A stretch of 64,000 nt of DNA from Paeniglutamicibacter psychrophenolicus (GTDB taxonomy: Bacteria > Actinomycetota > Actinomycetes > Actinomycetales > Micrococcaceae). Shown one piece after another: positions 42,498-61,633 of this stretch. Location: contig NZ_JAGIOE010000001.1 of the NCBI RefSeq assembly GCF_017876575.1, positions 434,001-498,000 on the forward strand, read 5' to 3'. Within the stretch, counting starts at the first letter, position 1. Each line of letters starts with the position of its first letter. Under the pieces are notes generated by a model, which searched no databases, had not been told where the DNA came from, and saw only the letters and a list, made by a program, of their open reading frames with translations. A program made the translations under genes and the position numbers.

Positions 42498-43754
42498 CTA
42501 GGCCTTGGCTGCTGCGGCCGCTGCGCGGGCCTCGCGGCGGGCGCGCTGGCGCTTGAGCTCGTTGCGGGCCATGGAGTTCTTGTGGACCTCGTCCGGGCCG
42601 TCAGCGAAGCGGATGGTGCGCGCGTAGGCGAAGGAGGACGCCAGGAAGAAGTCCTGCGACAGCCCCGCGGCACCGTGCACCTGGATGGCCTTGTCGAGGA
42701 TCCACTCGACTGCTGCCGGGGTGGCGATCTTGATGGCCTGGATCTCGGTGTGGGCGGCCTTGTTGCCCACGGTGTCCATGAGCCATGCGGTCTTGAGGAC
42801 CATCAGGCGAAGCTGTTCGATCTTCACGCGGGACTCGGCGATCCAGGTGCGCACCACGCCCTGGTCGGACAGCGGCTTGCCGAACGGCGTGCGGGCATCC
42901 GCGCGCTCGCACATCATCGAGATGGCGCGCTCGGCCATGCCGATGGCGCGCATGCAGTGGTGGATGCGGCCGGGGCCCAGGCGGGCCTGGGCGATGGCGA
43001 AGCCCTCGCCCTCCGCGCCGATGATGTTCGAGACCGGGACGCGGACGTCCTTGAACTCCAGCTCCGCGTGGCCACCGTTGTAGTGGTCCTCGTAGCCGAA
43101 GATGGTCATGCCGCGCTTGACGGTCACACCCGGGGTGTTGCGCGGAACCAGGATCTGGCTCTGCTGCTTGTGGCGCTCCGCGGTCGGATCGGTCTTGCCC
43201 ATCACGATGAAGATCTCGGCGTTGGGGTTCATGGCACCGGTGATGAACCACTTGGTGCCGTTGATGACGTACTCGTCGCCGTCGCGCACGATCGAGGTTT
43301 CGATGTTGGTGGCATCCGAGGATGCGACCTTCGGCTCGGTCATCGCGAAGGCCGAACGGATCTCGCCGTTCAGCAGCGGCTTGAGCCACTTTTCCTTTTG
43401 CTCCTCGGTGCCGAACTCGGCCAGCAGCTCCATGTTTCCGGTGTCCGGGGCGGCGCAGTTCAGTGCGGCAGGGGCCAGCGTGCGGGCGCGCCCGGTGATC
43501 TCGGACAGGGCCGCGTACTGGACGTTGGTCAGGCCGGCACCACCCTCGCCCGGGAGGAACAGGTTCCACAGCCCGCGGCTGCGGGCCTCGGCGCGCAGCT
43601 CGTTGAGGATCTTGGACTCGGACCAGGCGTACGGGTTCTCCATGGTCTTGAGCTCATCGGCGAAGGCCTGCTCGTTCGGGTACACGTGCGAGTACATGAA
43701 GTCGACGAGTTCCTTCTTCAGGAGCTCCGTGCGTTCATCGATCGAGAATTCCAA
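42498..43754 (-). CDS. Acyl-CoA dehydrogenase, ACAD10/11-like (module copy 2)
   Basis: A 418-residue flavoprotein closely related to the one at 39610-40851; it differs mostly at the N-terminal 50 and C-terminal 20 residues (the end here is Ala/Lys-rich). Seen: FAMTEPKVASSDATN, FIVMGKTDP, RTPFGKPLSDQG, HGAAGLSQD. The start is TTG, one base after the kinase stop, with AAGGAG nine bases upstream. In ACAD10/11-type pathways this enzyme converts the phosphorylated 4-hydroxyacyl-CoA to a 2-enoyl/3-hydroxyacyl-CoA. The adjacency of an intact kinase gene upstream supports that role. Confidence 0.9.
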   Translation of the reverse strand: MEFSIDERTELLKKELVDFMYSHVYPNEQAFADELKTMENPYAWSESKILNELRAEARSRGLWNLFLPGEGGAGLTNVQYAALSEITGRARTLAPAALNCAAPDTGNMELLAEFGTEEQKEKWLKPLLNGEIRSAFAMTEPKVASSDATNIETSIVRDGDEYVINGTKWFITGAMNPNAEIFIVMGKTDPTAERHKQQSQILVPRNTPGVTVKRGMTIFGYEDHYNGGHAELEFKDVRVPVSNIIGAEGEGFAIAQARLGPGRIHHCMRAIGMAERAISMMCERADARTPFGKPLSDQGVVRTWIAESRVKIEQLRLMVLKTAWLMDTVGNKAAHTEIQAIKIATPAAVEWILDKAIQVHGAAGLSQDFFLASSFAYARTIRFADGPDEVHKNSMARNELKRQRARREARAAAAAAKA

Positions 43755-43755
43755 T

Positions 43756-44832
43756 TTACTTGTGCTCCTTCAGTGATTCGAGCCCGAGTTCAATCAACAA
43801 CGGCACGGTGCTGCCGCTGTCCTCGAAGCCCTCGCCAACGGTCTGGCGGTTGATGTGTCTGTAGCGGACTCCCTCGGAGATGCCGGCGAGCTTGAAGCAG
43901 GCCAGTCCCAGGTGGAATCCAAAGCCTTCGAGCTTTCGTCCGCTCTCGGCCTCGTAAAGCGCCATGATCTCCTCGGTGGAGAGGTATCCGGGCGCCAGGG
44001 TCACGTCGTAGTTGGCCGGGTCGGTTGTTTCGTAACCGGCAACGATCTTGGCACGGCGCTGGTAGGTCAGCATCAGTGCAAGGTCCAGCAGCGGGTCCCC
44101 GAGCGTGGCCATTTCCCAGTCGATGACCGCCGCGGGCAAGTCGTCCGGGCCCATCAGCACGTTGTCCAGGCGGAAGTCGCCGTGCACGATGCCGGCGGCG
44201 GACTTGGCCGGAACCGTGGCCAGCAGCTTTGCGTGCAGTTCCTCGACGCCGGGAAGCTCGCGGGTCTTGGACGTATCAAGCTGCTGCTTCCAGCGCTTGA
44301 CCTGGCGGCCCAGGAAGCCCTCGGGGCGGCCGAAGTCGCCCAGGCCCACCTGTGCGGGGTCGACGCTGTGCAGCTTGGCCAGGGTGCCTACCAGCTCGGT
44401 GGACAGGCCGCGGGTGCGTTCCTCGCCCAGTGCGCGCAGCTCGTCGGCGTAGCGGTACGGCACGCCGTCGATGCGTTCCATGATGTAGAAGTCCGCGCCC
44501 AGCACGTCCTTGTCGCCGCAGTAGGCGTACATCTTGGCGACCGGCACATCGGTGCCGCGCAGGGCGTCGGCCATGGTGTACTCGCGGCGCATGTCGTGTG
44601 CCGTGGCCATGATGGTGCCCAGCGGCGGACGGCGCACGATCCACGCGTTGGTGCCGTCGGTCAGTTCGTAGGTCAGGTTCGACTTGCCGCCGGTGATCAG
44701 CGTTGCGGACAGTTCCCCGGCGACCATGCCGGGGTGTTCGGCCGCAAGCCAGTCGGTCAGCTTGTCGAGGTCCAGACCCGTGGGGGAAACGCGCTTCGTT
44801 GCAGCGTTGGTGTTTTCGGTGTTGGTGCTCAT
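43756..44832 (-). CDS. APH-fold phosphotransferase, probable 4-hydroxyacyl-CoA kinase
   Basis: A 358-residue kinase-like protein of the aminoglycoside phosphotransferase family. Seen: the catalytic loop HGDFRLDN (217-224) and metal-binding DWE (238-240), with a glycine-rich nucleotide loop in ITGGKSNLTYEL near residue 50. The family includes the N-terminal kinase domain of human ACAD10/11 and Pseudomonas LvaA, which phosphorylate 4-hydroxyacyl-CoA. The downstream ACAD-type gene is one base away, and the upstream stop is two bases from its ATG, so the three genes are tightly coupled. An antibiotic-resistance function is unlikely given this context. Confidence 0.88.
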   Translation of the reverse strand: MSTNTENTNAATKRVSPTGLDLDKLTDWLAAEHPGMVAGELSATLITGGKSNLTYELTDGTNAWIVRRPPLGTIMATAHDMRREYTMADALRGTDVPVAKMYAYCGDKDVLGADFYIMERIDGVPYRYADELRALGEERTRGLSTELVGTLAKLHSVDPAQVGLGDFGRPEGFLGRQVKRWKQQLDTSKTRELPGVEELHAKLLATVPAKSAAGIVHGDFRLDNVLMGPDDLPAAVIDWEMATLGDPLLDLALMLTYQRRAKIVAGYETTDPANYDVTLAPGYLSTEEIMALYEAESGRKLEGFGFHLGLACFKLAGISEGVRYRHINRQTVGEGFEDSGSTVPLLIELGLESLKEHK

Positions 44833-44834
44833 GT

Positions 44835-45953
44835 TTAGGCCCTTGCAAATTCAGGTACGAGCGATTCGAAGGTGATATCGCCCTTCTTGACACTGCCGAA
44901 GCGCAGGGCCAGCTCGGCCATGTGGTCCACGGTCTCCTTGCTGGCCTTGAACATCGGGTTCAGTTTCGGTGCCACGTCGGCGGCATAGTGCTCGACGTAG
45001 GCCTTGGCGATCTCGGGTGCCTTGCCGCCAAGCCCTGTGGTGTTCAGCAGGTCCGCTGCCTTGTCCGGATTCGCGATGATCCACTTGTTGGCGTCTTCCT
45101 GCGCGGCCAGCCAGTTCTGCACGACCTCCGGCTTCTGCTCCACCAGGTCCTCGCGCACCCCAATGGCCACGACGGCCTGGTTGCGCATCAAGTCCGGAAC
45201 GCCCTTCTCGGCGAAGTCGATCAGGATGGTGCCCCCGGTCTCCTTGGCCACAAAGCGCGTGGAGGTCCACTGGACCGTCACGTAGGCGTCGACGCGGTCG
45301 GCCTTCAGGTTCGGGATGGCCTGTGCGGTCGGGCCGATGGCAAGGGCCGTGACATCGGAATACTTCATGCCCGCAAGTTCCAGGGCCAGCTTCAGCTGCA
45401 GGTCGCCGCCGGCGCCAACGGAGGAGACACCGACCTTCTTGCCCTTCAGCGAAGCCATCTTTTCCTCGAAGCTCGCATCCGCGGACGGCCACTGGTGCTT
45501 CTGGCTGCCCACGATGCCGTAGGTGGTTTCCATGGTGCGGAAGCCGACCAGCAGCGGGCGCTTGCCCTTGGAGCTGTTGGCGTGGGTGGCCATGAGCAGC
45601 AGCGTGTCGGCGGCGTAGCCGTCGATGGCGCCGGCAACCAACAGCTGGAAGGCCTGGACCCCGGATTGCGGGTTCAGGTGCTTGGGGACGTTGAGGTTGT
45701 GCTTGGCATAGTCCTTGTTAGCCAGGTTGACCGCGTCAAGGAAGTAGGCGTCGCCGGGGAAGGCGGCAATGGAAAAGTCCGTGACCCCACCCTCGGAGGC
45801 GTTTTTGCCGCCGCCGCAGGCCGCCAGCAGCGGCACCGAACCGAGCGCCGCGGCACCCAGGCCGGCGTACCTCAGCAGGGAGCGGCGTGAGACGCCCCCG
45901 TCCAATCCCTGCAGTCCGCCGAAGGGCGATCCGCCGTTCCGTGATTCAAACAT
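44835..45953 (-). CDS. NitT/TauT-type ABC substrate-binding protein (module copy 2)
   Basis: A 372-residue exported lipoprotein, paralogous to that at 40913-42028. Seen: twin arginine in SRRSLLRYAG, lipobox LAAC (Cys46), FSIAAFPGDAYFLDAVNLANKDYAKHNLNV, LKGKKVGVSSVGAGGDLQLKLALE and VTVQWTSTRFVAKETGG. The start ATG follows AGGAGTAGGA. Differences between the copies cluster in the ligand-side loops (for example SQKHQWPSAD versus GRKGISWPGPD), which might reflect different ligand preference (inference). It sits in the same run as the kinase and dehydrogenase. Confidence 0.9.
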   Translation of the reverse strand: MFESRNGGSPFGGLQGLDGGVSRRSLLRYAGLGAAALGSVPLLAACGGGKNASEGGVTDFSIAAFPGDAYFLDAVNLANKDYAKHNLNVPKHLNPQSGVQAFQLLVAGAIDGYAADTLLLMATHANSSKGKRPLLVGFRTMETTYGIVGSQKHQWPSADASFEEKMASLKGKKVGVSSVGAGGDLQLKLALELAGMKYSDVTALAIGPTAQAIPNLKADRVDAYVTVQWTSTRFVAKETGGTILIDFAEKGVPDLMRNQAVVAIGVREDLVEQKPEVVQNWLAAQEDANKWIIANPDKAADLLNTTGLGGKAPEIAKAYVEHYAADVAPKLNPMFKASKETVDHMAELALRFGSVKKGDITFESLVPEFARA

Positions 45954-46027: not shown

Positions 46028-47044
46028 CTACGTGGAGCTCTGGGAGTGTTCCATGACCACGCGGCCCACGGTCTTGCCGTCGGCCAGGCGCTGCAGGCCG
46101 GCGGGCACGCCGTCGATCTCGAAGCGCTCGGACACGAAGGGCACGATGGCCCCGGAGTCGGCCAACCGGGTCAGTTCCTTGTGGCAGTCGTCGACCGCCT
46201 GCGGGTTCTTGGTGTTGTACAGGCCCCAGTGGATGCCGAGGATCGCGTAGTTCTTCACCAGTGCGTGGTTCAGCTTGGCGGACTGGATCTCCCCGCCGGC
46301 GAAGCCGACCACGATGATCCGGCCCTCGAAGGCGATGCACTTGGTGGAGCGCTGGTAGGTTTCGCCGCCGACCGGGTCGTAGATGACATCCGCGCCCCGC
46401 CCGTCGGTGAATTCGTTGACCAGTGCCACGAAGTCTTCCTCGCGGCGGTCGATGACCAGGTCCGCACCGAGCTCCTTGGCGTATGCGGCCTTCGCCGCAC
46501 CGCCGACCACGCCGATGACCTTGGCCCCGGCGGCCTTGCCCAGCTGGATGGCGGCGGAACCGACGCCTCCGGCGGCGGCATGCACCAGCAGGGTTTCCCC
46601 GGGCTGGATGCGGGCCAGGCGGTGCAGGCCGAACCAGCCGGTCTGGTACCCGATGAACAGGCAAGCTGCCTGCGCATCGTCAAGCGATGCCGGCGCCGAG
46701 TGGACCGCGTGCTGGTCCATCAGCGCGTATTCGGCGAACCCGCCGTGCGGAAGCGTGGTCAACCCCAGCACCCTGTCCCCGACCTTGGCGCGGGTGACAC
46801 CCGGGCCGGTGGAGATGACCTCGGCGCAAACCTCGCGACCGGGGGTGAAGGGAAGCTCCGGCTTCACCTGGTAGACGCCGCGGCACATCAACACGTCGGG
46901 GAAGTTGGCCGCGGAGGCGAGCACGCGCACCAGGACCTGGCCTTCACCGGGGGTTGGTACAGCGCGTTCGACTAGCTGCAGGGCATCGACCGGTTCACCG
47001 AGTTCGGTGACCGACCATGCCTTCAGGGTGCTGGGGATCGTCAT
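46028..47044 (-). CDS. NADPH:quinone oxidoreductase-like medium-chain reductase
   Basis: A 338-residue MDR-superfamily protein without the structural-zinc cysteines. Seen: PGREVCAEVISTGPGV, VGDRVLGLTTLPHGGFAEYALM, HAAAGGVGSAAIQLGKAAGAKVIG (the NADPH Rossmann motif AGGVG), and DVIYDPVGGETYQRSTKCIAFEGR. The arrangement is that of quinone oxidoreductase or enoyl reductase enzymes. In the island it could reduce an enone or enoyl-CoA. It lies four bases after the biotin-carrier gene and 74 bases before the second binding-protein gene, in one minus-strand run. Confidence 0.88.
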   Translation of the reverse strand: MTIPSTLKAWSVTELGEPVDALQLVERAVPTPGEGQVLVRVLASAANFPDVLMCRGVYQVKPELPFTPGREVCAEVISTGPGVTRAKVGDRVLGLTTLPHGGFAEYALMDQHAVHSAPASLDDAQAACLFIGYQTGWFGLHRLARIQPGETLLVHAAAGGVGSAAIQLGKAAGAKVIGVVGGAAKAAYAKELGADLVIDRREEDFVALVNEFTDGRGADVIYDPVGGETYQRSTKCIAFEGRIIVVGFAGGEIQSAKLNHALVKNYAILGIHWGLYNTKNPQAVDDCHKELTRLADSGAIVPFVSERFEIDGVPAGLQRLADGKTVGRVVMEHSQSST

Positions 47045-47048
47045 GCTG

Positions 47049-47270
47049 CTACTCCGCTTCGAAACTGACCAGGGCCTGGCCCGGTGCCACCACGTCGCCC
47101 TCGGCGACGTGGAGCTCGGTCACGGTGCCGGCGTCTTCGGCCATGACGGGGATTTCCATCTTCATGGCTTCGAGGATCATGAACACGTCATCTTCCTCGA
47201 CCTTGTCGCCCGGGGCGACAAGGATCTTCCATACGTTGGCACCCATGTCTGCTGCGATTGTTTCTGCCAT
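47049..47270 (-). CDS. Biotin carrier protein of an acyl-CoA carboxylase (short, stand-alone)
   Basis: A 73-residue protein consisting only of a biotinyl/lipoyl domain, with the biotinylation motif EAMKME (Lys37). The chosen ATG is nine bases after GGAG; a second ATG two codons earlier overlaps the upstream stop as ATGA, so either may be used. It would carry carboxybiotin between the biotin carboxylase and carboxyltransferase encoded immediately upstream. Many actinobacterial carboxylases fuse this domain to the biotin carboxylase subunit; here it is separate. Confidence 0.9.
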   Translation of the reverse strand: MAETIAADMGANVWKILVAPGDKVEEDDVFMILEAMKMEIPVMAEDAGTVTELHVAEGDVVAPGQALVSFEAE

Positions 47271-47272: not shown

Positions 47273-48658
<1,386 letters not shown>

Positions 48659-48668: not shown

Positions 48669-50228
48669 TTAGAAGCTCGTCGGCCAGGTGCTCAGGTTGT
48701 GTTCGCCGATGCCGTTGGTGCGGGCACGGTAGTGGTCCTTGAGGGCGCCGATGATGTAATCGCGCGTCTCTGCCGGATCGATGACCTGCTCGAAGCCGAA
48801 GACCTGGGCCACGTCGTAGGCCGTGGTGCCCTTGGCCATCTCGGCCAGGCGCAGCTCGTACATCTCCGGATCGGTTTCCTTGTCGATGCCGTGGACCACG
48901 GCGACCGCGGAGGTCGGGTCCATGAAGCTGACCTCGGAGGACCACCAGCCGGCGGTGGAGTCGGCGGTGCCGCCGCCGCCCATGTTGATCAATGCCTGTC
49001 CGTAGTTCTTGCGCATCGTCACGGCGATCTTCGGGACGGTGACCAGCGACAGGGCGTTCATCCAGTTGATGATCTTGCCGGCAACCTTGCTGCGCTCGGC
49101 CTCCAGGCCGATCAGGAAGCCGGGCTGGTCAACCAGGTGGACGACCGGGATGTTGTAGGAGTCGCACAGCACCAGGAAGCTGGTCGCCTTGTCGCAGGCA
49201 GCCCCGTCCAGTGCGCCGCCCTTGAACTGCGGGTTGTTGGCGATGATGCCCACGGACTGGCCGTTGATGCGGGCCAGCGAGGTGACCAGGGACTTGCCGT
49301 AGCGGGCCTTGATCGGGAAGACCGAGCCGGTGTCGGCAATGATCTCGATGACCTTGCGCACGTCGTAGGTCTGCGTGCGGGACTCGGGAACGATCGCCTT
49401 GAGTTCCGCGGCGCGCTCGCCCGAGCCGGCCGGGACCGGTGCGGTCGGCGGCAGCTCGCCGTTGTGCGAGGGCAGGTAGGACAGGAAGCGGCGGATCAGT
49501 TCGATCGCTTCCTCGTCGGAGTCGGCGACCGCGTCGGCGAACCCGGTGACCTCGGCGTGCATCTTCCAGCCGCCGAGTTCCTGGGCGTCGACCTGCTGGC
49601 CGGTGGCGCGGGCCACCAGGTTGGGGCTGGACACCGCGAGCACTGCACCCTTGCGGAAGACCGCAAAGTCACTGGTCATGGTGTGCCAGGCGGCCGAACC
49701 GAAGCAGTAGCCGAAGGCCGCGGACACCCATGGGCTTTCGCGCTTGCGCAGGAAGCGGGTCTTGCCGTTGGCCGAGCCCATGCCGGTGCCGCCCATGGCG
49801 TCGGGCATGCGCACGCCGGTGGACTCGGAAAGGTAGACCAGCGGCTGGCCGGTCTTGACCACCATTTCCTTGAAGTGGGACATCTTCTTGTTGCTGATCG
49901 GGGACGAGGAGGAGCCCTTGACGGTGAAGTCGTAGGCGACCACGCTCGCGCGCCGGCCGTCGATCTCGCCGCTGCCGGTGATCTTGCCGTCGGCCGGGGT
50001 CTTGTCGCGGTCCGCCGGCACGGCCGAGGTCACGAACAGCCCGGACTCGCGGAACGTGCCCGGGTCCAGCAGCAGCGCGACGCGCTCGCGTGCGTTCAGC
50101 TCGCCCTTGTCGCGGCGGGCATCAAGCTTCCGGGCCCCGCCCATGGCCAGGGCGGCGGCGCGCTTCTGCTCGTGCTCCTGCTCGCGGGTCAACTTTGCAT
50201 CCTGGGTCTTCACGGCTTCCTGCGTCAT
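48669..50228 (-). CDS. Acyl-CoA carboxylase carboxyltransferase (beta) subunit
   Basis: A 519-residue carboxyltransferase. Seen: RERVALLLDPGTFRESGLF near the N-terminus, the oxyanion-hole type glycine pairs in the first half (AMGGTGMGSANGKT; FGYCFGSAAWHTM) and in the second half (NMGGGGTADSTAGWW), and PVVHLVDQPGFLIGLEAERSK. It transfers the carboxyl group from biotin to an acyl-CoA. Acceptor preference (acetyl-, propionyl-, methylcrotonyl- or geranyl-CoA) cannot be read from the sequence. It is encoded five bases after the CoA ligase gene. Confidence 0.93.
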   Translation of the reverse strand: MTQEAVKTQDAKLTREQEHEQKRAAALAMGGARKLDARRDKGELNARERVALLLDPGTFRESGLFVTSAVPADRDKTPADGKITGSGEIDGRRASVVAYDFTVKGSSSSPISNKKMSHFKEMVVKTGQPLVYLSESTGVRMPDAMGGTGMGSANGKTRFLRKRESPWVSAAFGYCFGSAAWHTMTSDFAVFRKGAVLAVSSPNLVARATGQQVDAQELGGWKMHAEVTGFADAVADSDEEAIELIRRFLSYLPSHNGELPPTAPVPAGSGERAAELKAIVPESRTQTYDVRKVIEIIADTGSVFPIKARYGKSLVTSLARINGQSVGIIANNPQFKGGALDGAACDKATSFLVLCDSYNIPVVHLVDQPGFLIGLEAERSKVAGKIINWMNALSLVTVPKIAVTMRKNYGQALINMGGGGTADSTAGWWSSEVSFMDPTSAVAVVHGIDKETDPEMYELRLAEMAKGTTAYDVAQVFGFEQVIDPAETRDYIIGALKDHYRARTNGIGEHNLSTWPTSF

Positions 50229-52375: not shown

Positions 52376-52438
52376 GGCAGATTCCCTGGTACGGGCCTGC
52401 GCTACGAGCTCGACGATGGTCGCTGAGCTACGGGGTTG

Positions 52439-52583: not shown

Positions 52584-53044
52584 CGGCGCCTGGTCGCGGG
52601 GGTGTTCAGTGCAGTGTCCCAACCGCTGCCCAGCCCCGCCAAATGCACCATCCACGGGGTTTGGCCCGCCGGGGAGCCGGGGATTTCGCGCCCCGTGCCG
52701 CAGCCTGGGGGCAACGTCCCGGGGTCCGTCCGAAACGTAACAAGGCGGCAGTTTCGGTGCTCCGGGTGGCCAGGGGGTCGGATCCGGCATGCGTTCCGGG
52801 GTGGGCGGGAATCATCCGGGGCCCGCCGGGCGGGCCCCCCTGGCCTGCGCGTGCGACCCGATGCGTCGGCCCCGCGGGGACCGCAACCCACCCTCGGGAG
52901 GCGCGATGGCCCGCCACTGGACAGTCCCTGTGCGGTGCCATGGCCGGGGGCCCGGGGAATGGCAGCCAAGGAACCCGGCTGCCCGCCAGGCAGGGCCCCG
53001 GAGGGCTCCTGCGTGGCGTGTGGCCCGCCGAGGCCGCTATCGGG
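52584..53044. other. GC-rich spacer downstream of the LysR gene
   Basis: About 460 bases without a credible gene. It holds several GC-rich inverted repeats, the clearest GGGGCCCGCC/GGCGGGCCCC at 52818-52838, likely the LysR-gene terminator region. A single GCTATCG lies directly at the 3' end of the LysR gene (53036-53042) and may be chance. Confidence 0.45.
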
Positions 53045-53947
53045 TCAGAAGGTCTTCGCGGCTTCCCGCAGCAGACGCAGGAAGGCCTGCACGGCCGAGG
53101 ACCTGGCCTCGTCCTTCCTGACGATGGCGGAGGTGCTGGCCCGCGCCCATTCGAAGGGAAGCGGCACAAGCGCAACGCCGTTTCCGCTGATGGTCGATTC
53201 GAGCAGCGTGTTGGCCATGCAAATACCCACACCGGCACGCACCATGGCTTGCGAAGCCTCCGCATTGGGCGTCGTGTAAACGATCCTGGCCTCGACACCC
53301 TCCAGCATTTTCTCGTAGGCCACTCGCAGGATGCTCGACTCCGCGGGGAAGATCAGCGCCTCCCCCTCCAGGTCCGCAGGCTCGAAGTCGTCCTTGCCGG
53401 CGAGCCGGTGGTCTTCGGGGACCGCCAGGACCAGCCGGCCGGTGATCAGGTCGACGTGGTGCAGCAAGGCGTCCTCGGCCGGGGTCAGCTCGATGCCCGG
53501 CAGGCGGGTCACCAGGCCCACGTCCAGGTGGCCGCTGAGGACACCGCGGACCACCATCTTCGACGGCCCCTCATCCACCTCGAAGCGCACATTGGGGAAT
53601 TCGGTCAACAGGCGTTTGACCACCTTGGGAAGAATCGTCTGGGAACCGGCCGGCACCGTGCCGAGCCGGACCGCGCCCAGCTTCAGTCCGCCGATGGCGC
53701 TGGCCTCCTCGCGAAGCATGCGCTCGGCCTGGACCGCCGCAATCACGTGCGGCAGGATCCTTTCGGCCGCATAGGTCGGCCGCACGCCCTTCGCACCGCG
53801 GGTCACCAATATGACCCCCAGGTCCTCCTCGAGCCGTTGCACTTGGTTGGTGATTGTCGGCTGCGAGATATCTAGCTCCTTGGCAGCTTGCCGGAACGAA
53901 CCGGTTCGCAATGCTGCCTCCAGGTAGCGCAACTGCGCAAATCTCAT
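53045..53947 (-). CDS. LysR-family transcriptional regulator
   Basis: A 300-residue LTTR. Seen: N-terminal winged HTH (residues about 1-60; RYLEAALRTGSFRQAAKELDISQPTITNQVQRLEEDLG), linker helix, and the C-terminal periplasmic-binding-like inducer domain (VRLGTVPAGSQTILPKVVKRL; AVPEDHRLAG; AGVGICMANTLLES). It lies between the CoA-ligase operon and the transporter/SDR genes and is the only regulator found inside the island, so it is the likely candidate for the LysR-type boxes at 39476 and 56836 (inference). It is followed by a GC-rich spacer with hairpins. Confidence 0.93.
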   Translation of the reverse strand: MRFAQLRYLEAALRTGSFRQAAKELDISQPTITNQVQRLEEDLGVILVTRGAKGVRPTYAAERILPHVIAAVQAERMLREEASAIGGLKLGAVRLGTVPAGSQTILPKVVKRLLTEFPNVRFEVDEGPSKMVVRGVLSGHLDVGLVTRLPGIELTPAEDALLHHVDLITGRLVLAVPEDHRLAGKDDFEPADLEGEALIFPAESSILRVAYEKMLEGVEARIVYTTPNAEASQAMVRAGVGICMANTLLESTISGNGVALVPLPFEWARASTSAIVRKDEARSSAVQAFLRLLREAAKTF

Positions 53948-54059: not shown

Positions 54060-54875
54060 TCAGCCACGCAACCCGTCGAGGCCAGTGGCATCCCGGGACA
54101 GCGCCCCGCCATCGACGGCGATCGTGGAGCCGGTGATGTACCCGGCCGCCGGCGACAGCAGGAACGCAATCGCGGAGGCGATTTCGTGGGGCTGGCCAAG
54201 CCGGCCGAGCAGCGGAGCCGCAGCCAGTGCCTGCGCGTCGGATTCGCTTCGTGCCTTGGCGACGTACCGTTCCGAGAGGAAAAGCCCAGGTGCCACCGCG
54301 TTGACGCGGATGCCGCGGGGGCCGTATTCGGCCGCAAGCTGCTTGACCCATACCTGCAGCGCCGCCTTGGCCGGGCCGTAGCCCGGTGCCACCAACCCGC
54401 CGCGCGAGGCAACCACCGAGGACACATGCACGATCGAACCCTCCGCAAGCAGCGGGACCAGCTTGCGTGCGGCCAGGAAGGCATGCGAGAGGTTCACCGT
54501 GAAATCGCGTTCCCAGTCCTCCAGGCCGTAGTCGGCGATCGGCTTGGCAAGCATCTGCCCGATGACATCGACGTACCCGTTGATCGTCCCGAACCCGGAG
54601 GCGGCCGCTGCAGCGATGCGCTCGATGCCTTCCTCGGTCGTGGCATCGGCGACCAGCCACGGCGCGCCCAGCGAGCCGGCCACTGCGGAAACCGCATCGG
54701 CGTTGATGTCAACGCACAGCAGCCGCCCGCCCAGCCCGGCGACCATCCTGCTCACATGCTCCCCGATCCCGCTGCCGGCGCCCAGGACGACGAATGACTT
54801 CCCGTCCAGTCTGAACAGGCCTGGGTAGTTCACGGCGCTGGCCGGGGTCGGCCGGGATGGATTGGCGATCTGCAT
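54060..54875 (-). CDS. SDR family oxidoreductase
   Basis: A 271-residue short-chain dehydrogenase. Seen: cofactor loop [31 protein letters not shown] with the active-site serine, and YGPAK for the Tyr/Lys pair, plus the C-terminal [18 protein letters not shown]. An unusual point is the N-terminal extension of about 25 residues before the Rossmann strand. Its likely role is alcohol/ketone interconversion in the island pathway. It lies about 100 bases downstream of the permease gene behind a strong hairpin, so it may have its own promoter. Confidence 0.88.
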
Positions 54876-54976: not shown

Positions 54977-55831
54977 CTAGCGGGTCCACTTCGTCACGAG
55001 CTTCTGCAAGCCCGAGATGGAAAGGTCCAGGACCATCGAGAGCAGGCCCATGGCCAGCAGGATGGCGAAGGTCTCCGAGACCTGGAAGTTGTTGGTCACC
55101 ACGACCAGCCGCTGCCCGAGGCCGGTGTAGGCCCCGACCATTTCCGAGACCACCGCACCAAGCACCGAATAGACAGCTCCCAGGCGCAGGCCGCCGACGA
55201 TGGACGGCAGCGCCGAGGGCAGCTCGATCTTGAAGAAGCGCTGCGCCTTGGACATGCCCAGGGACTGGGTCAGCTGCTTGATGTCATGGTCCAGGGCCTG
55301 CAGGGCACCCATGGTGCTGGTCATCAGGACGAAGAACACGACGCTGAAGGCAACCAGTGCCTTCGGACCGAAGCCCAGCCCGAACCAGAGGATGAAGATC
55401 GGTGCAAGCGCCGGGCGCGGCAGCGAGTTCATCAGGGTCAGGAACGGCCTGGCGGCAACGTGGAGAACCTCGACACGGACGAAGATCACGCCGGCCAGGA
55501 TGCCCAGGATCGCGCCGGAGACAAGACCCGCCATGGCGCCGCTGAACGTCGCGGCGACGTCGGTCCAGAACGTGGAGTCCGCCAGCTGCTTGACGAAGGA
55601 CAATCCGACATCGCCCGGGGTGGAAACGAGCGTCGGATCCATGATCCCCTGGCCGGTCACGAAGGCCCAGCTGAAGATGAAGACGGCAAGCGCGCCGATC
55701 CTCAGGGCCCAGACACCGAACTGTCGGTTGATGCGTGATCGGCGCCGCTCGGCAACGATCGTGCTGTCGTCATAGGCATGTGCGCCCGTGGCTGCCACTG
55801 CTGCGCCGCCGGTCTTGGCTATCGTTTCCAT
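54977..55831 (-). CDS. NitT/TauT-type ABC transporter permease
   Basis: A 284-residue membrane subunit with six spans. The start chosen is ATG (METIAK) after AAGGGG at six bases; a GTG five codons earlier has a poorer site. Seen: the family-typical NSLPRPALAPIFILWFGLGFGPKALVAFSVV and the EAA-like loop ALDHDIKQLTQSLGMSKAQRFFKIELPSALPSIVGGLRLG. It pairs with the ATPase at 57061 and the two binding proteins encoded about 9-15 kb away. Its gene follows the SDR at 55874 by 42 bases. Confidence 0.9.
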   Translation of the reverse strand: METIAKTGGAAVAATGAHAYDDSTIVAERRRSRINRQFGVWALRIGALAVFIFSWAFVTGQGIMDPTLVSTPGDVGLSFVKQLADSTFWTDVAATFSGAMAGLVSGAILGILAGVIFVRVEVLHVAARPFLTLMNSLPRPALAPIFILWFGLGFGPKALVAFSVVFFVLMTSTMGALQALDHDIKQLTQSLGMSKAQRFFKIELPSALPSIVGGLRLGAVYSVLGAVVSEMVGAYTGLGQRLVVVTNNFQVSETFAILLAMGLLSMVLDLSISGLQKLVTKWTR

Positions 55832-55873
55832 GTCGAGCCCCTTCACTTCCGGTCTTCGGTGGTACTGAATGAA

Positions 55874-56707
55874 TCACGCATTGCGCGGTTCCCTGACAAG
55901 CTTTGAATCCAGCGGCGATGAGGTGTGCGGCCCGCCGGTGACCTGCAGGACGGTGCCGGTGATGAAGCTTGAGGCATCCGAGCACAGGTACAGGCAGGCG
56001 TCGGCGACTTCCTCGGGAAGCCCCACGCGCCCCAGGGCCAGGAACTCGCCGAAGGACTTCTCGACATCCGCATTGGCGAAGCGCGAGGACGGAGTCAAGG
56101 TGGCGCCCGGCTCGACGCAGTTGGCCCGCACTCCGCGGTCCGCCCACTCCCAGGACATGGTCTTGGTCAGCGAGGCAAGCCCCGCCTTGGCAGCTGCGTA
56201 CGCGCCGCGCATCGGGTGGGCGTAGTTCGCCGATCCGGAGCCGACGTTGATGATGTTTCCGCCACCCTGGCGCTCGAAGATCGGGAGGCAGGCCACGGAG
56301 GTGTGGAACGCGCCGGAGAGGTTGGTTCCGATGGTGGCGTTCCACGCGTTGACCGAAAGGTCTTCCAGGCGTGCGGCGAAGTTGCCGCCGGCGTTGTTGA
56401 TCAGGATGTCGATGCGGCCGAATTCCTCAAGGGCGGTCCGGACCAGCAAATCGGCGGTCTCGGGCTCACGGATGTTGCCGGTCACCACCACCGCCTTGCG
56501 TCCGAGTTCGCGGATCTGCTCGGCCTTGGCCTCAAGGGCTTCGGCCTTGCGTCCGTGCAGGATCAAATCGGCGCCGGCCTGTGCGAACTTGTCGGCGAGC
56601 GCCGATCCGATGCCGCCGGAGGCGCCCGTCACGATGACGACCTGGCCGGTGAAATCGAAGATGGTCTGGCCCACCTTTTTGCTGGTGCTGCTGACTGCGT
56701 TCGTCAT
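55874..56707 (-). CDS. SDR family oxidoreductase
   Basis: A 277-residue short-chain dehydrogenase, starting at ATG six bases after AGGAGG; the longer open frame upstream is leader. Seen: VIVTGASGGIGSALADKF (cofactor loop), NNAGGNFAARLEDLS, NVGSGSANYAHPMRGAYAAAKAG (serine, tyrosine and lysine of the active site) and FITGTVLQVTGGP. It resembles 2,4-dienoyl-CoA reductase/glucose dehydrogenase-type SDRs. It is transcribed together with the permease and divergently from the ATPase-hydrolase-Baeyer-Villiger operon. Confidence 0.88.
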   Translation of the reverse strand: MTNAVSSTSKKVGQTIFDFTGQVVIVTGASGGIGSALADKFAQAGADLILHGRKAEALEAKAEQIRELGRKAVVVTGNIREPETADLLVRTALEEFGRIDILINNAGGNFAARLEDLSVNAWNATIGTNLSGAFHTSVACLPIFERQGGGNIINVGSGSANYAHPMRGAYAAAKAGLASLTKTMSWEWADRGVRANCVEPGATLTPSSRFANADVEKSFGEFLALGRVGLPEEVADACLYLCSDASSFITGTVLQVTGGPHTSSPLDSKLVREPRNA

Positions 56708-57060
56708 CTGACGTCCTCCTGGTTTTGATGCGTTCCCGGTGTGTGCGGCTGGTTCACGCACTGCGGGCCGTCATGGCAATGGTGCGTTTGAGAAAGCTTC
56801 CATCCATTCGCTCCCCAGGGCAATGAACTAACCGCTATCGTTGCGATAGCCCCGGAAAGCCCGACTTTTCCTTGACTCTGCCGCGCATGTGTTCAACGAT
56901 TCATGGACAAGCAGGTGACGTGCACCACAAGCATAAGCCTCCCGGTTTCATCGTGTTCATAGCTGTTCCAGCGTGACCATCGCTGGTGCCGGCTCAGCAA
57001 TCCTCAACCAACGTAGACTGCCAAACGGGTCGGCCCCGCAACCCAATGACTGGAGCGAAA
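56708..57060. promoter_or_regulatory. Divergent promoter region with LysR-type box
   Basis: About 350 bases between divergently transcribed island operons; no gene. Contains the operator at 56836-56851, a possible plus-strand promoter TTGACT (56872-56877) 17 bases before AACGAT, and a run of GTTCA-type words near 56890-56960. Both operons are likely controlled from here. Confidence 0.6.
56836..56851. promoter_or_regulatory. LysR-type operator in the divergent promoter region
   Basis: TATCGTTGCGATAGCC; with the flanking GC at 56834 it forms the perfect palindrome GCTATCG-TTG-CGATAGC (56834-56850). TATC-N5-GATA fits the T-N11-A rule for LysR boxes. It matches the P450-operon site in 13 of 16 positions, including all of GCGATAGCC. 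Confidence 0.65.
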
Positions 57061-57945
57061 ATGTCTGATACAACCCTCCGTTCAACCCCCGATAGTGAGA
57101 CTCCCATGACTGAAAAGACGGCCCAGTCCTCAACGGCCAGAGGGGTCTCTGTCGAGTTCGAGAACGTGAACCACAGCTTCCTGCACGGCAACCGTCCTGT
57201 GCGGGTGTTGGACAACTTCAACCTGAAGATCGAGCCATCCGAGTTCGTCAGCATCGTCGGCCCCTCGGGCTGCGGCAAGACGACGGCCCTGGGCATGGTC
57301 GGCAACCTCCTGAAGCCGCGCGCCGGCAAGGTCCTCATCGACGGCCACGAGGTGCGCCCTGGCAGCAACGACGCCGCCTTCCTCTTCGCCCGCGATGCGC
57401 TGCTTCCCTGGCGCCGGGTCCGCAGCAACGTGGAACTCGGCATGGAGATCCGCGGGGTTCCCAAGGAAGAGCGCCGCGTGCGCGCCGAGGAGTGGCTGCG
57501 CAAGGTCCGCTTGCACGAATTTGCCGATTCCGACGTCCTGCACCTGTCCCAGGGCATGCGCCAGCGCGTTGCGATTGCCCGGACCTTGGTGCAGAACCCC
57601 AAGGTCCTGCTGATGGACGAGCCCTTCGCGGCCCTTGACGCACAGACCCGCGCGATCCAGCAGGAAGAGTTCACCAGCCTCTGGGAGGCCGAGCGTCCGA
57701 CTGTCATCTTCGTGACCCACGACCTCGAGGAAGCCATCCTGCTGTCCGACCGCGTCATCCTCATGGCCAGCCGCCCGGGCCGCATGGTGGTCGACATGAA
57801 GATCGAGCTCGAACGCCCGCGTCGCCAGGAGATGCGCCGGGATTCGGACATGTTCAAGTCCTACTTCCACGAAATGTCCGACCGGCTTCGCAAGGAAGTC
57901 GACCTCGCCGAAGAACGCATCAGGGAGGAAAGCAAGAATGACTAA
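57061..57945 (+). CDS. NitT/TauT-type ABC transporter ATP-binding protein
   Basis: A 294-residue ATPase like SsuB/TauB. The start is ATG after GGAG-N5. Seen: Walker A GPSGCGKTT (67-75), Q-loop FLFARDALLPWRRVRSNVELG (the AQ/ARD-LLPW motif of this subfamily), signature LSQGMRQRVAIART, Walker B VLLMDEPFAALD and H-loop VIFVTHDLEEAILLSD, with a C-terminal extension of about 50 residues. It supplies energy for the permease at 54977. Its stop overlaps the hydrolase start by eight bases. Confidence 0.92.
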   Translation: MSDTTLRSTPDSETPMTEKTAQSSTARGVSVEFENVNHSFLHGNRPVRVLDNFNLKIEPSEFVSIVGPSGCGKTTALGMVGNLLKPRAGKVLIDGHEVRPGSNDAAFLFARDALLPWRRVRSNVELGMEIRGVPKEERRVRAEEWLRKVRLHEFADSDVLHLSQGMRQRVAIARTLVQNPKVLLMDEPFAALDAQTRAIQQEEFTSLWEAERPTVIFVTHDLEEAILLSDRVILMASRPGRMVVDMKIELERPRRQEMRRDSDMFKSYFHEMSDRLRKEVDLAEERIREESKND

Positions 57946-58753
57946 CAACATCCTTCAGAAGATCACCGCTCCCGACGGCACCACCACCGTCTACCGCCAG
58001 TACGGGCACGGCCCGCGCCTTCTCACCGTTCTGCACTCGCTTGCATTGGACGGATCCTGGTACGCACCGCTGGCCGAGGCGCTCGGCGATGACTATCGCC
58101 TGCTCGCACCCGATTTCCGCGGGCACGGCCAAAGCGCACGCGGGGACTCGACCCCCACCCTGGCCCTCGTGGCCCAGGACATCGCCGCCATGTGGGACGC
58201 CGAGAACGTGCAAAGCTCGGTCATCCTGGGCATTTCGCTCGGCGGCATGGTCGCCCAGGCCGTTACCGGCAGCTTCCCCGATCGCGTCGATGCGCAGATC
58301 CTGATGGCCACCCGCGGCGCCTACGACGACGCGGCAACCACCGGGACCCTGGCGCGCGCCGCAGAGGTCCGGGCCCCGAACGGGCTCGAGGATGTCGGAG
58401 ACGTAACCATGCACCGCTGGTTCGGCGACAACTCCACCGACGCCTCCAACCCCATGGTGCTGCAGGCCCGCACCCAGTTCCTCGAGGCCGGCGGCAACAC
58501 GATCGCCGAGTACTTCGAGGCCATGACCACGGTCGGCGACTTCCAGCTTGACACGCCGCCGCCAACCCTCGTGGTCGGCGGCGACGACGACCGAAGCATC
58601 CCCCGTGCGTTCGTCGAGCAGCTAGCCGCTTCGATCCCCGGCGCCGAGCTGCTCTTTGCCAAGGGCGGGCACCTGGTTGCCTTCGAGAATCCGGAAGAGG
58701 TCGCCAAGACCGTGCGCCCCTTCCTTGATGCACTGGACTGCTGGACCAACTAA
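57938..58753 (+). CDS. Alpha/beta hydrolase (esterase/lactonase candidate)
   Basis: A 271-residue alpha/beta hydrolase. Seen: the strand HSLALDGSWYAPLAEALGDDYRLLAPDFRGHGQS, the nucleophile motif GISLGG (Ser near residue 98), acid residue in VGGDDDRSIP and catalytic His in GGHLVAFENPEE. The pattern is like 3-oxoadipate enol-lactonase and related esterases. Overlap with the ATPase gene and closeness to the Baeyer-Villiger enzyme gene (48 bases) make it a candidate to open the ester or lactone that enzyme forms (inference). Confidence 0.88.
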   Translation: MTNNILQKITAPDGTTTVYRQYGHGPRLLTVLHSLALDGSWYAPLAEALGDDYRLLAPDFRGHGQSARGDSTPTLALVAQDIAAMWDAENVQSSVILGISLGGMVAQAVTGSFPDRVDAQILMATRGAYDDAATTGTLARAAEVRAPNGLEDVGDVTMHRWFGDNSTDASNPMVLQARTQFLEAGGNTIAEYFEAMTTVGDFQLDTPPPTLVVGGDDDRSIPRAFVEQLAASIPGAELLFAKGGHLVAFENPEEVAKTVRPFLDALDCWTN

Positions 58754-58800
58754 CGGCCCTTCGGGTCCGCCGTACACTTAAACTGCCTTACGGAGAAGAA

Positions 58801-60714
58801 ATGAACAAGACACTGGATCGCGCCACGACGAAGGTCAGCGAAGAAGAACTCGCCGCCCACCTGGAATCCGCCCAGGTCCCCGCGCTGATCATGCTGACCG
58901 CCCACGTCACCGGCGACACCAGCGTGCTGCGCGACGACTGGCGCCCGAACCTCCGGGCCCTGCCCAGCAGCGGCCTGGACGCCGAGACCGAGGCCACGGC
59001 ACGCAAGCGCTGCTTCGAGCTGCTGGCACCGCACCTGGCGACCCAGACCACCTGGGCCTCCGAGCCCAGCGAGGAACTCCGCCTGGCCATGAGCACCTGG
59101 CTGATGGGCGCGCCCGTCGAGGACGCGCTGGCCATGTCCGAGGTCTCGTTCATTCCCAACAACACCGACCCGCGCCAGCCCGAGTGGAAGCTCGCGGACA
59201 TCGCCCCGGACACCGCACTGAACGCCGTGGTCATCGGCGCCGGCTTCTCCGGGCTGCTCGCCGGCCTGCGCCTGAAGCAGGCGGGCGTCCCGTTCAAGAT
59301 CATCGAGAAGAGCCGCGACGTCGGCGGCACCTGGTGGGAAAACACCTACCCGGATTGCCGCACCGACGTGCGCAGCCACATCTACACCTACTCCTTCACC
59401 CAGCACGACTGGGAGACGCACTTCGGGCGCCAGGACAAGATCCACGAGTACCTTCACAACTTCGCGAAGGACAATGGCCTGCTGGAGCACATGGTCTACG
59501 GCACCGAGGTCACCGCGACCCGATGGAACGAGGAGACCAGCACCTGGTCCCTGGAAACCAAGACCGCCGAAGGAGTCGGGGAAACCTTCGAGTCCAGCAT
59601 CGTGGTCAGCGCCGTGGGCCAGCTCAACCGCCCCTCGATCCCGAACCTGGAAGGCCTTGACACCTTCAAGGGCCCCATCGTGCACTCCGCGCGCTGGGAC
59701 CACGAGTTGGACTTCACCGACAAGAAGGTCGTCGTCGTCGGCACCGGCGCCAGCGCCCTGCAGTTCGCCCCGGCCGTCGCCAAGGTCGCCGAACAGGTCA
59801 CCATCTTCCAGCGCAGCGCCCCGTGGCTGCGTTCCACCCCGGTGCTCCGCCAGGAGATCGAGACCGGCGAGCGCTGGCTGCTGAACAACCTGAACCAGTA
59901 CCGCGCGTACTACCGCTTCTCGATCTTCCTGCCGCGCGTTGTGGGCAACCTCGCGGCCGCCACTGTCGATCAGGACTTCGGGCCGACCGAGGTCTCGGTC
60001 TCCGCGGCCAACGAGGCGCTGCGCCTGGACCTGACCTCCTACCTGCTCGACCAGGCCGGTGACGACGAGGTGCTGGCCAAGCAGATCATCCCGAACTACC
60101 CGCCGGCCGCCAAGCGCATCATCTGCGACGACGGCACCTGGGTCAAGACCCTCAAGCGCGAGAACGTCCGCCTGGTTTCCCAGGGCGTGAGCCGCGTCGA
60201 CGAGACCGGCGTGTGGTTGGGCGACGAGCACATCGATGCCGACATCATCCTGCTGGGCACCGGCTTCAAGGCCGCTGACTTCCTGCTTCCGATGTCCGTG
60301 GCGGGCATCGGCGGCAAGGACCTGCACGAGACCTGGGGCATCGACGCCAGCGCCTACCTGGGTTCCACGCTTCCGGGCTTCCCGAACTTCTTCTGCATGT
60401 ACGGGCCGAACACCAACACCGTCATCCACGGCAACCTGGTCTTCTTCCTGGAATGCCAGGCCGTCTACATGCTTGATGCGATCAAGACCCTGGCGGAGGG
60501 CGGCTACAAGTCGCTGAACCTGCGCGACGACGTGTTCTTCGAATACGACAAGGAAATCGTTTCCGAAAGCGCCAAGCGCACCTGGGGCTGGTCCAAGACC
60601 CACTCCTGGTACATGAACGCAGAGGGCCGCTCGACCATCATGTGGCCGCTGCCGGCACGGAACTACTTCGAGCGCACCACCCACGTGCGCCCCGAGGAAT
60701 ACCAGCTGGGCTAA
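58801..60714 (+). CDS. Baeyer-Villiger monooxygenase, 4-hydroxyacetophenone monooxygenase-like
   Basis: A 637-residue class B flavin monooxygenase. Seen: an N-terminal extension of about 140 residues as in HAPMO of Pseudomonas fluorescens (640 residues), the first Rossmann motif GAGFSG (146-151), the Baeyer-Villiger fingerprint FxGxxxHxxxW fully intact (Phe289, Gly291, His295, Trp299), and a second Rossmann motif GTGASA (314-319). It inserts oxygen next to a ketone using FAD and NADPH, giving an ester or lactone. The start ATG follows ACGGAGAAG. It is flanked by hydrolase genes on both sides, the usual pattern for a Baeyer-Villiger pathway. Confidence 0.93.
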   Translation: MNKTLDRATTKVSEEELAAHLESAQVPALIMLTAHVTGDTSVLRDDWRPNLRALPSSGLDAETEATARKRCFELLAPHLATQTTWASEPSEELRLAMSTWLMGAPVEDALAMSEVSFIPNNTDPRQPEWKLADIAPDTALNAVVIGAGFSGLLAGLRLKQAGVPFKIIEKSRDVGGTWWENTYPDCRTDVRSHIYTYSFTQHDWETHFGRQDKIHEYLHNFAKDNGLLEHMVYGTEVTATRWNEETSTWSLETKTAEGVGETFESSIVVSAVGQLNRPSIPNLEGLDTFKGPIVHSARWDHELDFTDKKVVVVGTGASALQFAPAVAKVAEQVTIFQRSAPWLRSTPVLRQEIETGERWLLNNLNQYRAYYRFSIFLPRVVGNLAAATVDQDFGPTEVSVSAANEALRLDLTSYLLDQAGDDEVLAKQIIPNYPPAAKRIICDDGTWVKTLKRENVRLVSQGVSRVDETGVWLGDEHIDADIILLGTGFKAADFLLPMSVAGIGGKDLHETWGIDASAYLGSTLPGFPNFFCMYGPNTNTVIHGNLVFFLECQAVYMLDAIKTLAEGGYKSLNLRDDVFFEYDKEIVSESAKRTWGWSKTHSWYMNAEGRSTIMWPLPARNYFERTTHVRPEEYQLG

Positions 60715-60766
60715 TCCGCCCCCCCCGCAAACATCCAACATCCGATCCACAACACCGGAGGCTGAA

Positions 60767-61633
60767 TTGCTCACCGAGACAACTACGATCACCGAGACGA
60801 CCGCTGTCGTCGCCAACCTTGAAACCCGCTACCTCTCCGGCGGCCCGGCCACCGGCGCCCCCGTCGTCGTCTTCCTGCACGACGGTGCCTGGGGCGGCGC
60901 CGCTGACGTGACCTGGGGCGGCATCCTGCCGCTGGCCGCCGAAAACTTCCGCGTGATCGCACCGGACCTGCTCGGCTACGGCGGATCCGCCAAGTCGATC
61001 CGCCTGGACGTTTCGCCCTTCGCGTTCCGCCTGACCCACCTGTTCTCGCTGCTGGACCAGCTGGGAATCACCGAGCCGGTCCACCTGGTCGGCAACTCCT
61101 TCGGCGGCTCGCTGACCCTGCGTGCGCTGACCAACCCGGCGTTGCGCGAGCGCATCGCCTCGGTGAGCACCATTGCCGGCACCGGCGGTGCCTGGCGCGG
61201 GGCCGACCTGGCCAAGATCGGCGACTTCGACGGCACCCCCGAGCGCCTCGAGGAAATCGTCGGCTTCCTGTGCGAACCGTTCGAGGACAAGGACGCCCAG
61301 CTCGAGGCCCGCATGCGCTGGGCCGTCGCACCGGGGCACTTCGCTTCGATGAAGGCACCGCACACCGCTCCGCCCGAGGCCATGAAGGTTGAGCGTCCGG
61401 CGGATCCGTACCCGGGCAACCTGACCGGGGTCACCACCCCTGCGCTGCTGATCGAGGGCAAGAACGACACCTTGTTCGAAAGCGGCTGGAGCACCAAGCT
61501 GCAGGAGTTCCTGCCGCAGGCCAAGGCCGTGGTCATGGATTCCAAGCACAGCCCGAACATCAGCCAGCCCGCTGCAACCTGGGCCGTCATCAACGAGTTC
61601 CTCACCGACATCACCAAGGGCGGCAACGCATGA
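60767..61633 (+). CDS. Alpha/beta hydrolase (MhpC-like)
   Basis: A 288-residue alpha/beta hydrolase starting at TTG, preceded by GGAGG at five bases (start decided by that site; no ATG/GTG lies in a better place). Seen: VVFLHDGAWGGAADVTWGGILPLAAENFRVIAPDLLGYGGS (core of C-C/ester hydrolases), nucleophile GNSFGGSLTL, acid LIEGKNDTLFES and a histidine in DSKHSPNISQP. The N-terminus is Thr-rich. It resembles MhpC-type C-C bond hydrolases but could equally be the esterase of the Baeyer-Villiger product. Confidence 0.87.
   Translation: MLTETTTITETTAVVANLETRYLSGGPATGAPVVVFLHDGAWGGAADVTWGGILPLAAENFRVIAPDLLGYGGSAKSIRLDVSPFAFRLTHLFSLLDQLGITEPVHLVGNSFGGSLTLRALTNPALRERIASVSTIAGTGGAWRGADLAKIGDFDGTPERLEEIVGFLCEPFEDKDAQLEARMRWAVAPGHFASMKAPHTAPPEAMKVERPADPYPGNLTGVTTPALLIEGKNDTLFESGWSTKLQEFLPQAKAVVMDSKHSPNISQPAATWAVINEFLTDITKGGNA

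Follow-up and report, generated by a model that had tools for sequence, protein, structure and literature searches.

An ACAD11-type kinase/dehydrogenase pair in a conserved gene island

We analyzed a 64,000-nucleotide stretch of the 4.9 Mb genome of Paeniglutamicibacter psychrophenolicus (positions 434001-498000 of contig NZ_JAGIOE010000001.1; hereafter the window, whose own numbering is used below). It carries a gene island of 25-30 kb in which a putative 4-hydroxyacyl-CoA kinase and acyl-CoA dehydrogenases (ACADs) are combined with oxygenases, a CoA ligase and a biotin-dependent carboxylase. The minus strand encodes, in this order, a short-chain dehydrogenase/reductase (SDR2), an ABC permease, SDR1, a LysR-type regulator, an ADP-forming CoA ligase, a carboxyltransferase, a biotin carboxylase, a biotin carboxyl carrier protein (BCCP) and a medium-chain dehydrogenase/reductase (MDR), followed by binding protein A, the kinase, ACAD copy A, binding protein B, ACAD copy B, a reductase and a cytochrome P450. 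An ABC ATPase, hydrolase 1, a Baeyer-Villiger monooxygenase (BVMO), hydrolase 2 and SDR3 follow one another on the plus strand. The genes from carboxyltransferase to MDR are separated by only 2-10 bp and those from binding protein A to ACAD by 1-2 bp; ACAD and binding protein are each duplicated (39610-43754). The original prediction was based on the interval 42498-61633, which truncates this unit on the left. The carboxyltransferase, biotin carboxylase, BCCP, MDR, ABC ATPase, permease and two binding proteins, LysR regulator, P450 with its reductase, and second ACAD11-type ACAD had been overlooked.

A search of genome contigs with the ligase yielded nine loci; the relatives of the window's genome in the searches were Arthrobacter-type strains. 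Eight of the loci, from Arthrobacter, Pseudarthrobacter, Glutamicibacter and Rhodococcus koreensis, have the gene order in common, with some local differences. In strain MYb227, inserted genes separate ACAD and reductase; Arthrobacter sp. C2 has a longer LysR-ligase gap and an additional binding protein; the sole binding protein of MYb213 is B-like; and at A. cavernae the sequence breaks off at the kinase, where the contig ends. Because the order recurs in eight other actinobacterial loci, the arrangement is more than chance. At the ninth, alphaproteobacterial locus, carboxyltransferase and ligase alone match.

The kinase (43756..44832, minus strand) belongs to the ACAD10/11-type acyl-CoA kinases with APH fold (PF01636, 165.6 bits) and contains the motifs HGDFRLDN and DWEMATLGDP; the kinase domain of ACAD11 and related chains are among its relatives in the PDB. 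It directly precedes ACAD copy A (42498..43754, minus strand), which has ACAD11 as its best PDB match (2wbi/8v3u, E = 4.3e-131) and carries the motifs RLGPGRIHHCMR and ADGPDEVH. Copy B (39610..40851, minus strand) is 86% identical to copy A. The key residues described for ACAD11 are R626, R631, H634, R637 and D753, together with the catalytic Asp and Asn of the kinase (PMC12440821; articles cited by PMC number were available in part and are quoted to that extent). Our alignment revealed equivalents of all of these in the window proteins. We then scanned for motif patterns covering R626, H634, R637 and catalytic D753 of the ACAD, and the catalytic Asp and Asn (HGD..LDN) and DWE...LG motif of the kinase. 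The kinases encoded in the window and in the islands of the eight other loci were positive, as were both window ACADs, those of the seven loci in which the island ACAD is visible (at A. cavernae it lies beyond the contig end), a second ACAD of MYb227 and the island ACAD of a more distant genome of the class, G509. Two other ACAD paralogues and two other kinases of G509 each failed one of two motif patterns. The ACAD11-type kinase and dehydrogenase of the original prediction are thus borne out at residue level, and the predicted pair has the residues linked to 4-hydroxyacyl-CoA chemistry. A single kinase at E<=1e-20 was found in nine of the ten genome entries searched, that is, in eight of nine distinct genomes, since one strain is included twice (G094 = G151); R. 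koreensis has ten. A role of the kinase in aminoglycoside resistance was rejected (NCBIfam APH(3') model, 39.7 bits vs a cut-off of 205).

Chemistry of this kind has been described for the lva operon of Pseudomonas putida, in which the kinase LvaA and the ACAD LvaC convert 4-hydroxyacyl-CoA derived from levulinic acid via a phosphorylated intermediate into enoyl- or 3-hydroxyacyl-CoA (PMC11342911, PMC12440821). We liken the island pair to LvaA/LvaC by that description. The lva operon begins with a linear keto acid, whereas the island adds an upper part of P450, BVMO and hydrolases, an ADP-forming ligase, a biotin carboxylase and an ABC importer. With mammalian ACAD10/ACAD11 the island shares the kinase and ACAD domain families and the key residues, but its pair consists of two separate proteins, lacks the HAD domain of ACAD10 and lies within a catabolic island.

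Oxygenases, CoA ligase, carboxylase and lower module

The BVMO with hydrolases and the CoA ligase of the original prediction were all recovered. Type I BVMOs are characterized by the fingerprint FxGxxxHxxxW(P/D) and an FAD Rossmann motif, and the island enzyme (58801..60714, plus strand, 637 aa) carries both, as FKGPIVHSARWD and GAGFSG. Its FMO domain begins at about residue 143. An N-terminal extension of about 140 residues, together with activity on 4-hydroxyacetophenone, marks the subfamily of 4-hydroxyacetophenone monooxygenase (HAPMO), and we take the window BVMO to be HAPMO-like in length and extension. In contrast, the chn pathway for cyclohexanone employs a short BVMO of the cyclohexanone monooxygenase class, alcohol and aldehyde dehydrogenases and a lactone hydrolase; the window BVMO falls in the N-extended class. 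The island shares the type I fingerprint and a neighbouring hydrolase with HAPMO-type and steroid BVMOs and with the BVMO/esterase pair acpAB of acetophenone degradation, but differs in gene context. Among 196 matching plasmid records, the best 20 were 32.5-38.7% identical to the BVMO. The α/β hydrolases HYD1, which is PcaD-like (57938..58753), and HYD2 (60767..61633) lie on either side, both on the plus strand. BVMO genes are kept in 8/8 loci and in G509.

The P450 (37179..38396, minus strand, start inferred) is 53% identical to PbdA, the P450 of the CYP199A p-methoxybenzoate O-demethylase PbdAB of Rhodococcus jostii RHA1. It adjoins a reductase with FNR and C-terminal 2Fe-2S domains (38411..39427, minus strand, starting at a conserved ATG), its probable partner. 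PbdA binds the substrate carboxylate by R84, S87, S237 and a water on R236, and lines the ring pocket with F173, F176 and F291 (PMC11530827). In comparison with PbdA, R84, R236, S237 and F173 are kept in 9/9 primary island P450s. All nine lack S87, have a preceding B loop with six fewer residues, and carry A, G or L in place of F176 and L or I in place of F291. The carboxylate triad R84/S87/S237 of CYP199A is therefore incomplete, and we place these P450s, which also differ from PbdAB in their island context, as CYP199-like but outside CYP199A. We read the likely substrate as an acid bulkier than a flat benzoate.

Additional oxygenases occur at some loci. In MYb227, a second BVMO, binding protein, ACAD11-type ACAD and P450 lie together, so that these four functions recur as a group. 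The insertion in this strain (stretch positions 873-10427) encodes an aldehyde dehydrogenase, two zinc-dependent alcohol dehydrogenases, a hydrolase, a short-type BVMO, a major facilitator superfamily transporter and an SDR, a chn-like set. The second-best NCBIfam model of this SDR is cis-4-hydroxycyclohexanecarboxylate dehydrogenase (242 bits, under the cut-off of 350). Close to the G. soli island lie an additional pair of P450 and binding protein genes and a BVMO of the short type. In the fetched stretches, extra short-type BVMOs and extra P450s above 60% identity were found at these two of the eight loci only. A separate P450-reductase-BVMO-hydrolase-SDR module, 37-49% identical to the upper part of the island, is located on plasmid NZ_CP086070.1 of Rhodococcus pyridinivorans 4-4, for which no relevant literature was found under the names tried.

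The ADP-forming acyl-CoA ligase lies at 50234..52465 (minus strand); its open frame extends to 52564, the start probably being near 52465. Next to it, a three-subunit biotin carboxylase set is complete, consisting of carboxyltransferase (48669..50228), biotin carboxylase (47273..48658) and BCCP (47050..47270, 73 aa), all on the minus strand. The biotinylation motif AMKM is present in 9/9 BCCPs (window and eight loci), with SMKM in G509. The closest PDB relatives of the carboxyltransferase are propionyl-CoA carboxylase beta subunits, and it scores 290 bits for propionyl-CoA carboxylase, 161 for geranyl-CoA carboxylase (GCC) and up to 168 for methylcrotonyl-CoA carboxylase (MCC). These scores speak against a branched-acid route of the MCC/GCC type, and no gene resembling 3-hydroxy-3-methylglutaryl-CoA lyase was found among the scanned open reading frames (ORFs). 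Since three other carboxyltransferases of the genome are only 32-33% identical, the island subunit is a separate protein rather than the housekeeping propionyl-CoA carboxylase. Carboxyltransferase and ADP-forming ligase are also adjacent in an alphaproteobacterial metagenome-assembled genome (MAG) and on a Sulfitobacter plasmid, hinting at a common carboxylation step. The Sulfitobacter pair is accompanied by MaoC and a CoA ester lyase.

The SDR/MaoC/thiolase set of the original prediction was recovered in part. SDR1 (54060..54875, minus strand) and SDR2 (55874..56761, minus strand) lie in the interval and SDR3 (61630..62328, plus strand) just beyond it, but the scanned ORFs of 42498-61633 include neither a MaoC hydratase nor a thiolase. 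These are located outside, at 32127-33866, in a lower module on the plus strand comprising a histidine phosphatase (30632..31321), a FabG-like SDR4 (31192..32130, domain from about residue 65, true start probably internal), MaoC (32127..32612) and a 3-ketoacyl-CoA thiolase (32664..33866). An enoyl-CoA hydratase family protein (29555..30601, minus strand) adjoins the module here and in C2 and MYb213. Relatives of thiolase, MaoC and SDR4 of at least 57% identity occur around six of the eight islands and of the histidine phosphatase around seven (fetched stretches), in P. siccitolerans on the opposite side of the island. The histidine phosphatase could possibly clear stray phospho-acyl-CoA.

For import, the island encodes NMT1-type ABC substrate-binding lipoproteins A (44835..45953, Pfam NMT1, start position assigned) and B (40913..42028, open frame extending to 42148; 74% identical to A), a permease (54977..55846), all on the minus strand, and an ATPase (56986..57945, plus strand). 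A sequence search with the binding protein for a substrate class returned weak matches (best E 4.6e-05). The MDR (46028..47044, minus strand) is quinone-oxidoreductase-like and may be an enoyl or enone reductase.

Distribution, transfer and regulation of the island

Within the family, the ligase (E<=1e-100) was found in 4 of 149 genomes, and the same four contain kinase and BVMO orthologues of at least 70% identity; looser cut-offs gave 26 genomes for the kinase (E<=1e-40) and 19 for the BVMO (E<=1e-100). The P450 is present at 66% identity or more in five of the 149. In the fifth (G023), its only island neighbours are remnants of the reductase, ACAD and SDR3 genes, as would be left behind if the island had been deleted. 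Among 394 genomes of the class, the carboxyltransferase (E<=1e-120) was restricted to that of the window and G509. The orthologues found in the G509 island are 42-71% identical, with the kinase and a close MDR missing from the cluster; its nearest kinase (54%) is encoded elsewhere in the genome, next to an SDR4 orthologue (68%). Pairwise distances of 19 of 22 chosen genes in eight genomes (A. cavernae and G509 left out; THIOL, MAOC and HISP dropped, with one or two genomes without a match in the loci subset) correlated with those of the BVMO at r = 0.40-0.86 for 17 genes and 0.18 for SDR4, but relatedness is uncontrolled in these values and we do not use them as support.

Comparison with the housekeeping protein DisA, a thin yardstick of one gene, gave contrasts in both directions. 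R. koreensis DisA is 53% identical to that of the window and its island proteins 59-85% (18/18 compared), whereas in Arthrobacter sp. C2 DisA is 96% and the island proteins are 70-92% identical (18/19 compared), with SDR3 at 98%. These contrasts argue for horizontal exchange. ACAD copy A is 97% identical to its MYb227 counterpart, as against 75% for the adjoining kinase and about 80% for the binding protein, which is a further sign of gene exchange. By these comparisons, the island is mobile among soil actinobacteria.

The LysR-type regulator (53045..53947, minus strand) is 82-93% identical in 8/8 loci. Its A. cavernae gene (locus positions 8923-9821) matches in two overlapping pieces, as if by frameshift or sequencing error. 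Regulators of this type use palindromes of the form T-N11-A, and such a box, CTATCG-N3-CGATAG (56835..56849), lies between the divergent arms starting with SDR2 and the ABC ATPase. It is exact in nine of ten loci and has one mismatch in R. koreensis; the second gene group of MYb227 has an exact box of its own. Another copy with two mismatches (39475..39489) is situated about 50 bp upstream of reductase-P450, where the palindrome is kept within two mismatches in eight of nine loci (three in P. siccitolerans, by eye in the alignment). Upstream of the ligase, an element GATAG...TATC (52565..52585, minus strand) is present in 8/8 aligned loci (C2 and G509 not in the alignment). The LysR protein would be expected to bind these palindromes. 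Since related elements stand at the BVMO/importer, P450 and ligase promoters, the three arms are probably co-regulated, and this conservation would speak against unlinked expression of BVMO and kinase genes.

A possible pathway and its alternatives

Taken together, the island is real, conserved, mobile and probably co-regulated, which partly supports the central idea of the original prediction. The sequences establish the identities of the genes, the catalytic residues, the conservation, the promoter elements in common and the signs of transfer; from these we infer the substrate, the order of the steps and all activities. We tentatively regard the island as a horizontally spread catabolic set for a bulky, probably alicyclic carboxylic acid, a reading to which we assign slightly less than an even chance. 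The acid anion would be imported by the ABC transporter and hydroxylated by the CYP199-like P450 and its reductase at the ring end opposite the carboxylate. An SDR would form the ketone, the BVMO would insert oxygen, the hydrolases would open the resulting lactone(s) and the ADP-forming ligase would make the CoA thioester. The kinase would then phosphorylate the 4-hydroxyacyl-CoA, the ACAD11-type enzyme would eliminate phosphate to give 2-enoyl-CoA, and MaoC, a FabG-like SDR and thiolase would complete β-oxidation. From 4-oxocyclohexanecarboxylate, for example, BVMO and hydrolysis would yield HO-CH2-CH2-CH(COOH)-CH2-CH2-COOH, that is, 4-hydroxy-2-(2-carboxyethyl)butanoic acid. CoA on its original carboxylate would give a 4-hydroxyacyl-CoA, a thioester of the class expected for the kinase, and on chemical grounds elimination, hydration, oxidation and thiolysis should lead to acetyl-CoA and glutaryl-CoA. 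Ring opening to an acid that is 4-hydroxy relative to the original carboxylate would thus account for the joint occurrence of BVMO and ACAD11-type kinase in one island.

The flow from ketone via lactone and hydroxy acid to 4-hydroxyacyl-CoA, as first proposed, is consistent with the gene set, although that set was incomplete without P450, importer and carboxylase. A carboxylic acid would suit a CYP199-like P450 better than the substrates then suggested (cyclic ketones, gamma-lactones, terpenoid or aryl ketones), and we regard an acid as likelier than a neutral ketone. Two acids were considered and set aside: for jasmonate, none of the four articles listed was relevant and a kinase-free route is simpler, and the available part of PMC7996341 names no gene cluster of this kind for abscisic acid.

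In its most specific form, the scheme describes an aerobic pathway in which CYP199-like P450 and BVMO turn an acid of the para-keto cyclohexanecarboxylate type into the 4-hydroxyacyl-CoA for the ACAD11-type pair, with a dedicated biotin carboxylase adding a further step. This would be the first link of Baeyer-Villiger ring opening to phosphate-elimination β-oxidation, but we consider it rather doubtful in this full form. The 4-hydroxyacyl-CoA kinase/ACAD step was resolved only recently, in levulinate catabolism and in the breakdown of 4-hydroxy fatty acids by mammals. If our scheme holds, a source of 4-hydroxy acids in soil would be the ring opening of alicyclic acids, including persistent naphthenic and terpenoid acids. 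As it names specific substrates and intermediates, it is directly testable. No description of the island was found in the titles and abstract openings of the literature searched, which mostly excluded subscription journals and leaves novelty unproven; the single listed match joining Baeyer-Villiger chemistry with ACAD11 was a mouse study.

Several observations weigh against the alicyclic-acid reading. Its main weakness is the carboxylase, which is among the best conserved parts of the island and yet has no required step in the scheme; it may process a branched or odd product, or a ketone. The kinase is no obligate neighbour of the BVMO, since it lies outside the cluster in G509, although this genome still has a kinase and, within the island, an ACAD11-type ACAD. 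No close MaoC, thiolase or SDR4 orthologues were detected in the fetched stretches of R. koreensis. The best solved relatives of the BVMO are steroid, phenylacetone and cycloalkanone enzymes alike. The retained F173 of the PbdA pocket would also suit an aromatic substrate, and the second P450 of MYb227, having lost both R84 and R236, may act on a different substrate. Finally, the palindrome is not significantly enriched in the window alone (two occurrences, 0.94 expected; two reached by 26 of 100 shuffles); the weight lies in its conservation at fixed places.

Alternatively, the P450 could hydroxylate a p-alkylbenzoate, from which an SDR would form an aryl ketone, the BVMO an aryl ester and a hydrolase a hydroxybenzoate, so that ligase, kinase and ACAD would serve only the alkyl moiety set free or some other acid not related to it. 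CYP199A enzymes do use p-substituted benzoates, PbdA hydroxylates p-ethylbenzoate (PMC11530827), and acetophenone breakdown by BVMO and esterase has been proposed from transcriptomes of Rhodococcus rhodochrous GD02 (PMC9618137). The R. pyridinivorans module would also fit: the stretch read contains none of the CoA genes of the island, and F176 is retained in the module's P450 (with S87A, V288L and F291V). However, the small or aliphatic residues at F176 and F291 and the shorter B loop of all nine primary island P450s argue against a flat aromatic substrate, the scanned island ORFs include no gene for aromatic ring cleavage, and the CoA-linked genes would stay unexplained. We consider this route unlikely.

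Equally improbable in our view is that importer/BVMO, carboxylase and kinase/ACAD represent separate operons for different substrates, transferred jointly as a catabolic island of general use. The stand-alone BVMO-P450 module of R. pyridinivorans, the unlinked kinase of G509 and the chn-like insertion in MYb227 would be expected in this case. Against it stand the order recurring in 8/8 loci from Arthrobacter relatives and Rhodococcus, the single close kinase in eight of nine distinct genomes and the related elements at three promoters.

Still less probable is a ketone carboxylation like that of the Hpe pathway of R. rhodochrous GD02, in which the biotin carboxylase would act on the ketone, perhaps after phosphorylation, the ligase would form a β-ketoacyl-CoA for thiolytic cleavage and the BVMO would be a side branch. 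The three-part biotin carboxylase HpeCBA carboxylates a phospho-ketone and is encoded in an actinobacterial cluster with a kinase, a CoA ligase and signs of mobility (PMC9618137), and the same three functions meet in our island, with ligase and carboxyltransferase adjacent in 8/8 loci, the MAG and Sulfitobacter. But HpeHI is a two-subunit kinase, the Hpe ligase is AMP-forming and the eight-gene hpe cluster, as described in the available part of that article, has no BVMO, whereas the scanned island ORFs include only the APH-fold kinase with ACAD11 residues, directly before an ACAD11-type ACAD, and the BVMO genes are conserved throughout.

Between P450 and thiolase, the window additionally encodes an HbpS-like protein and an amidase (34597-37083), a pair shared, of the eight loci, with A. 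hankyongi only. In G509, an HbpS-like gene adjoins those for BCCP and biotin carboxylase.

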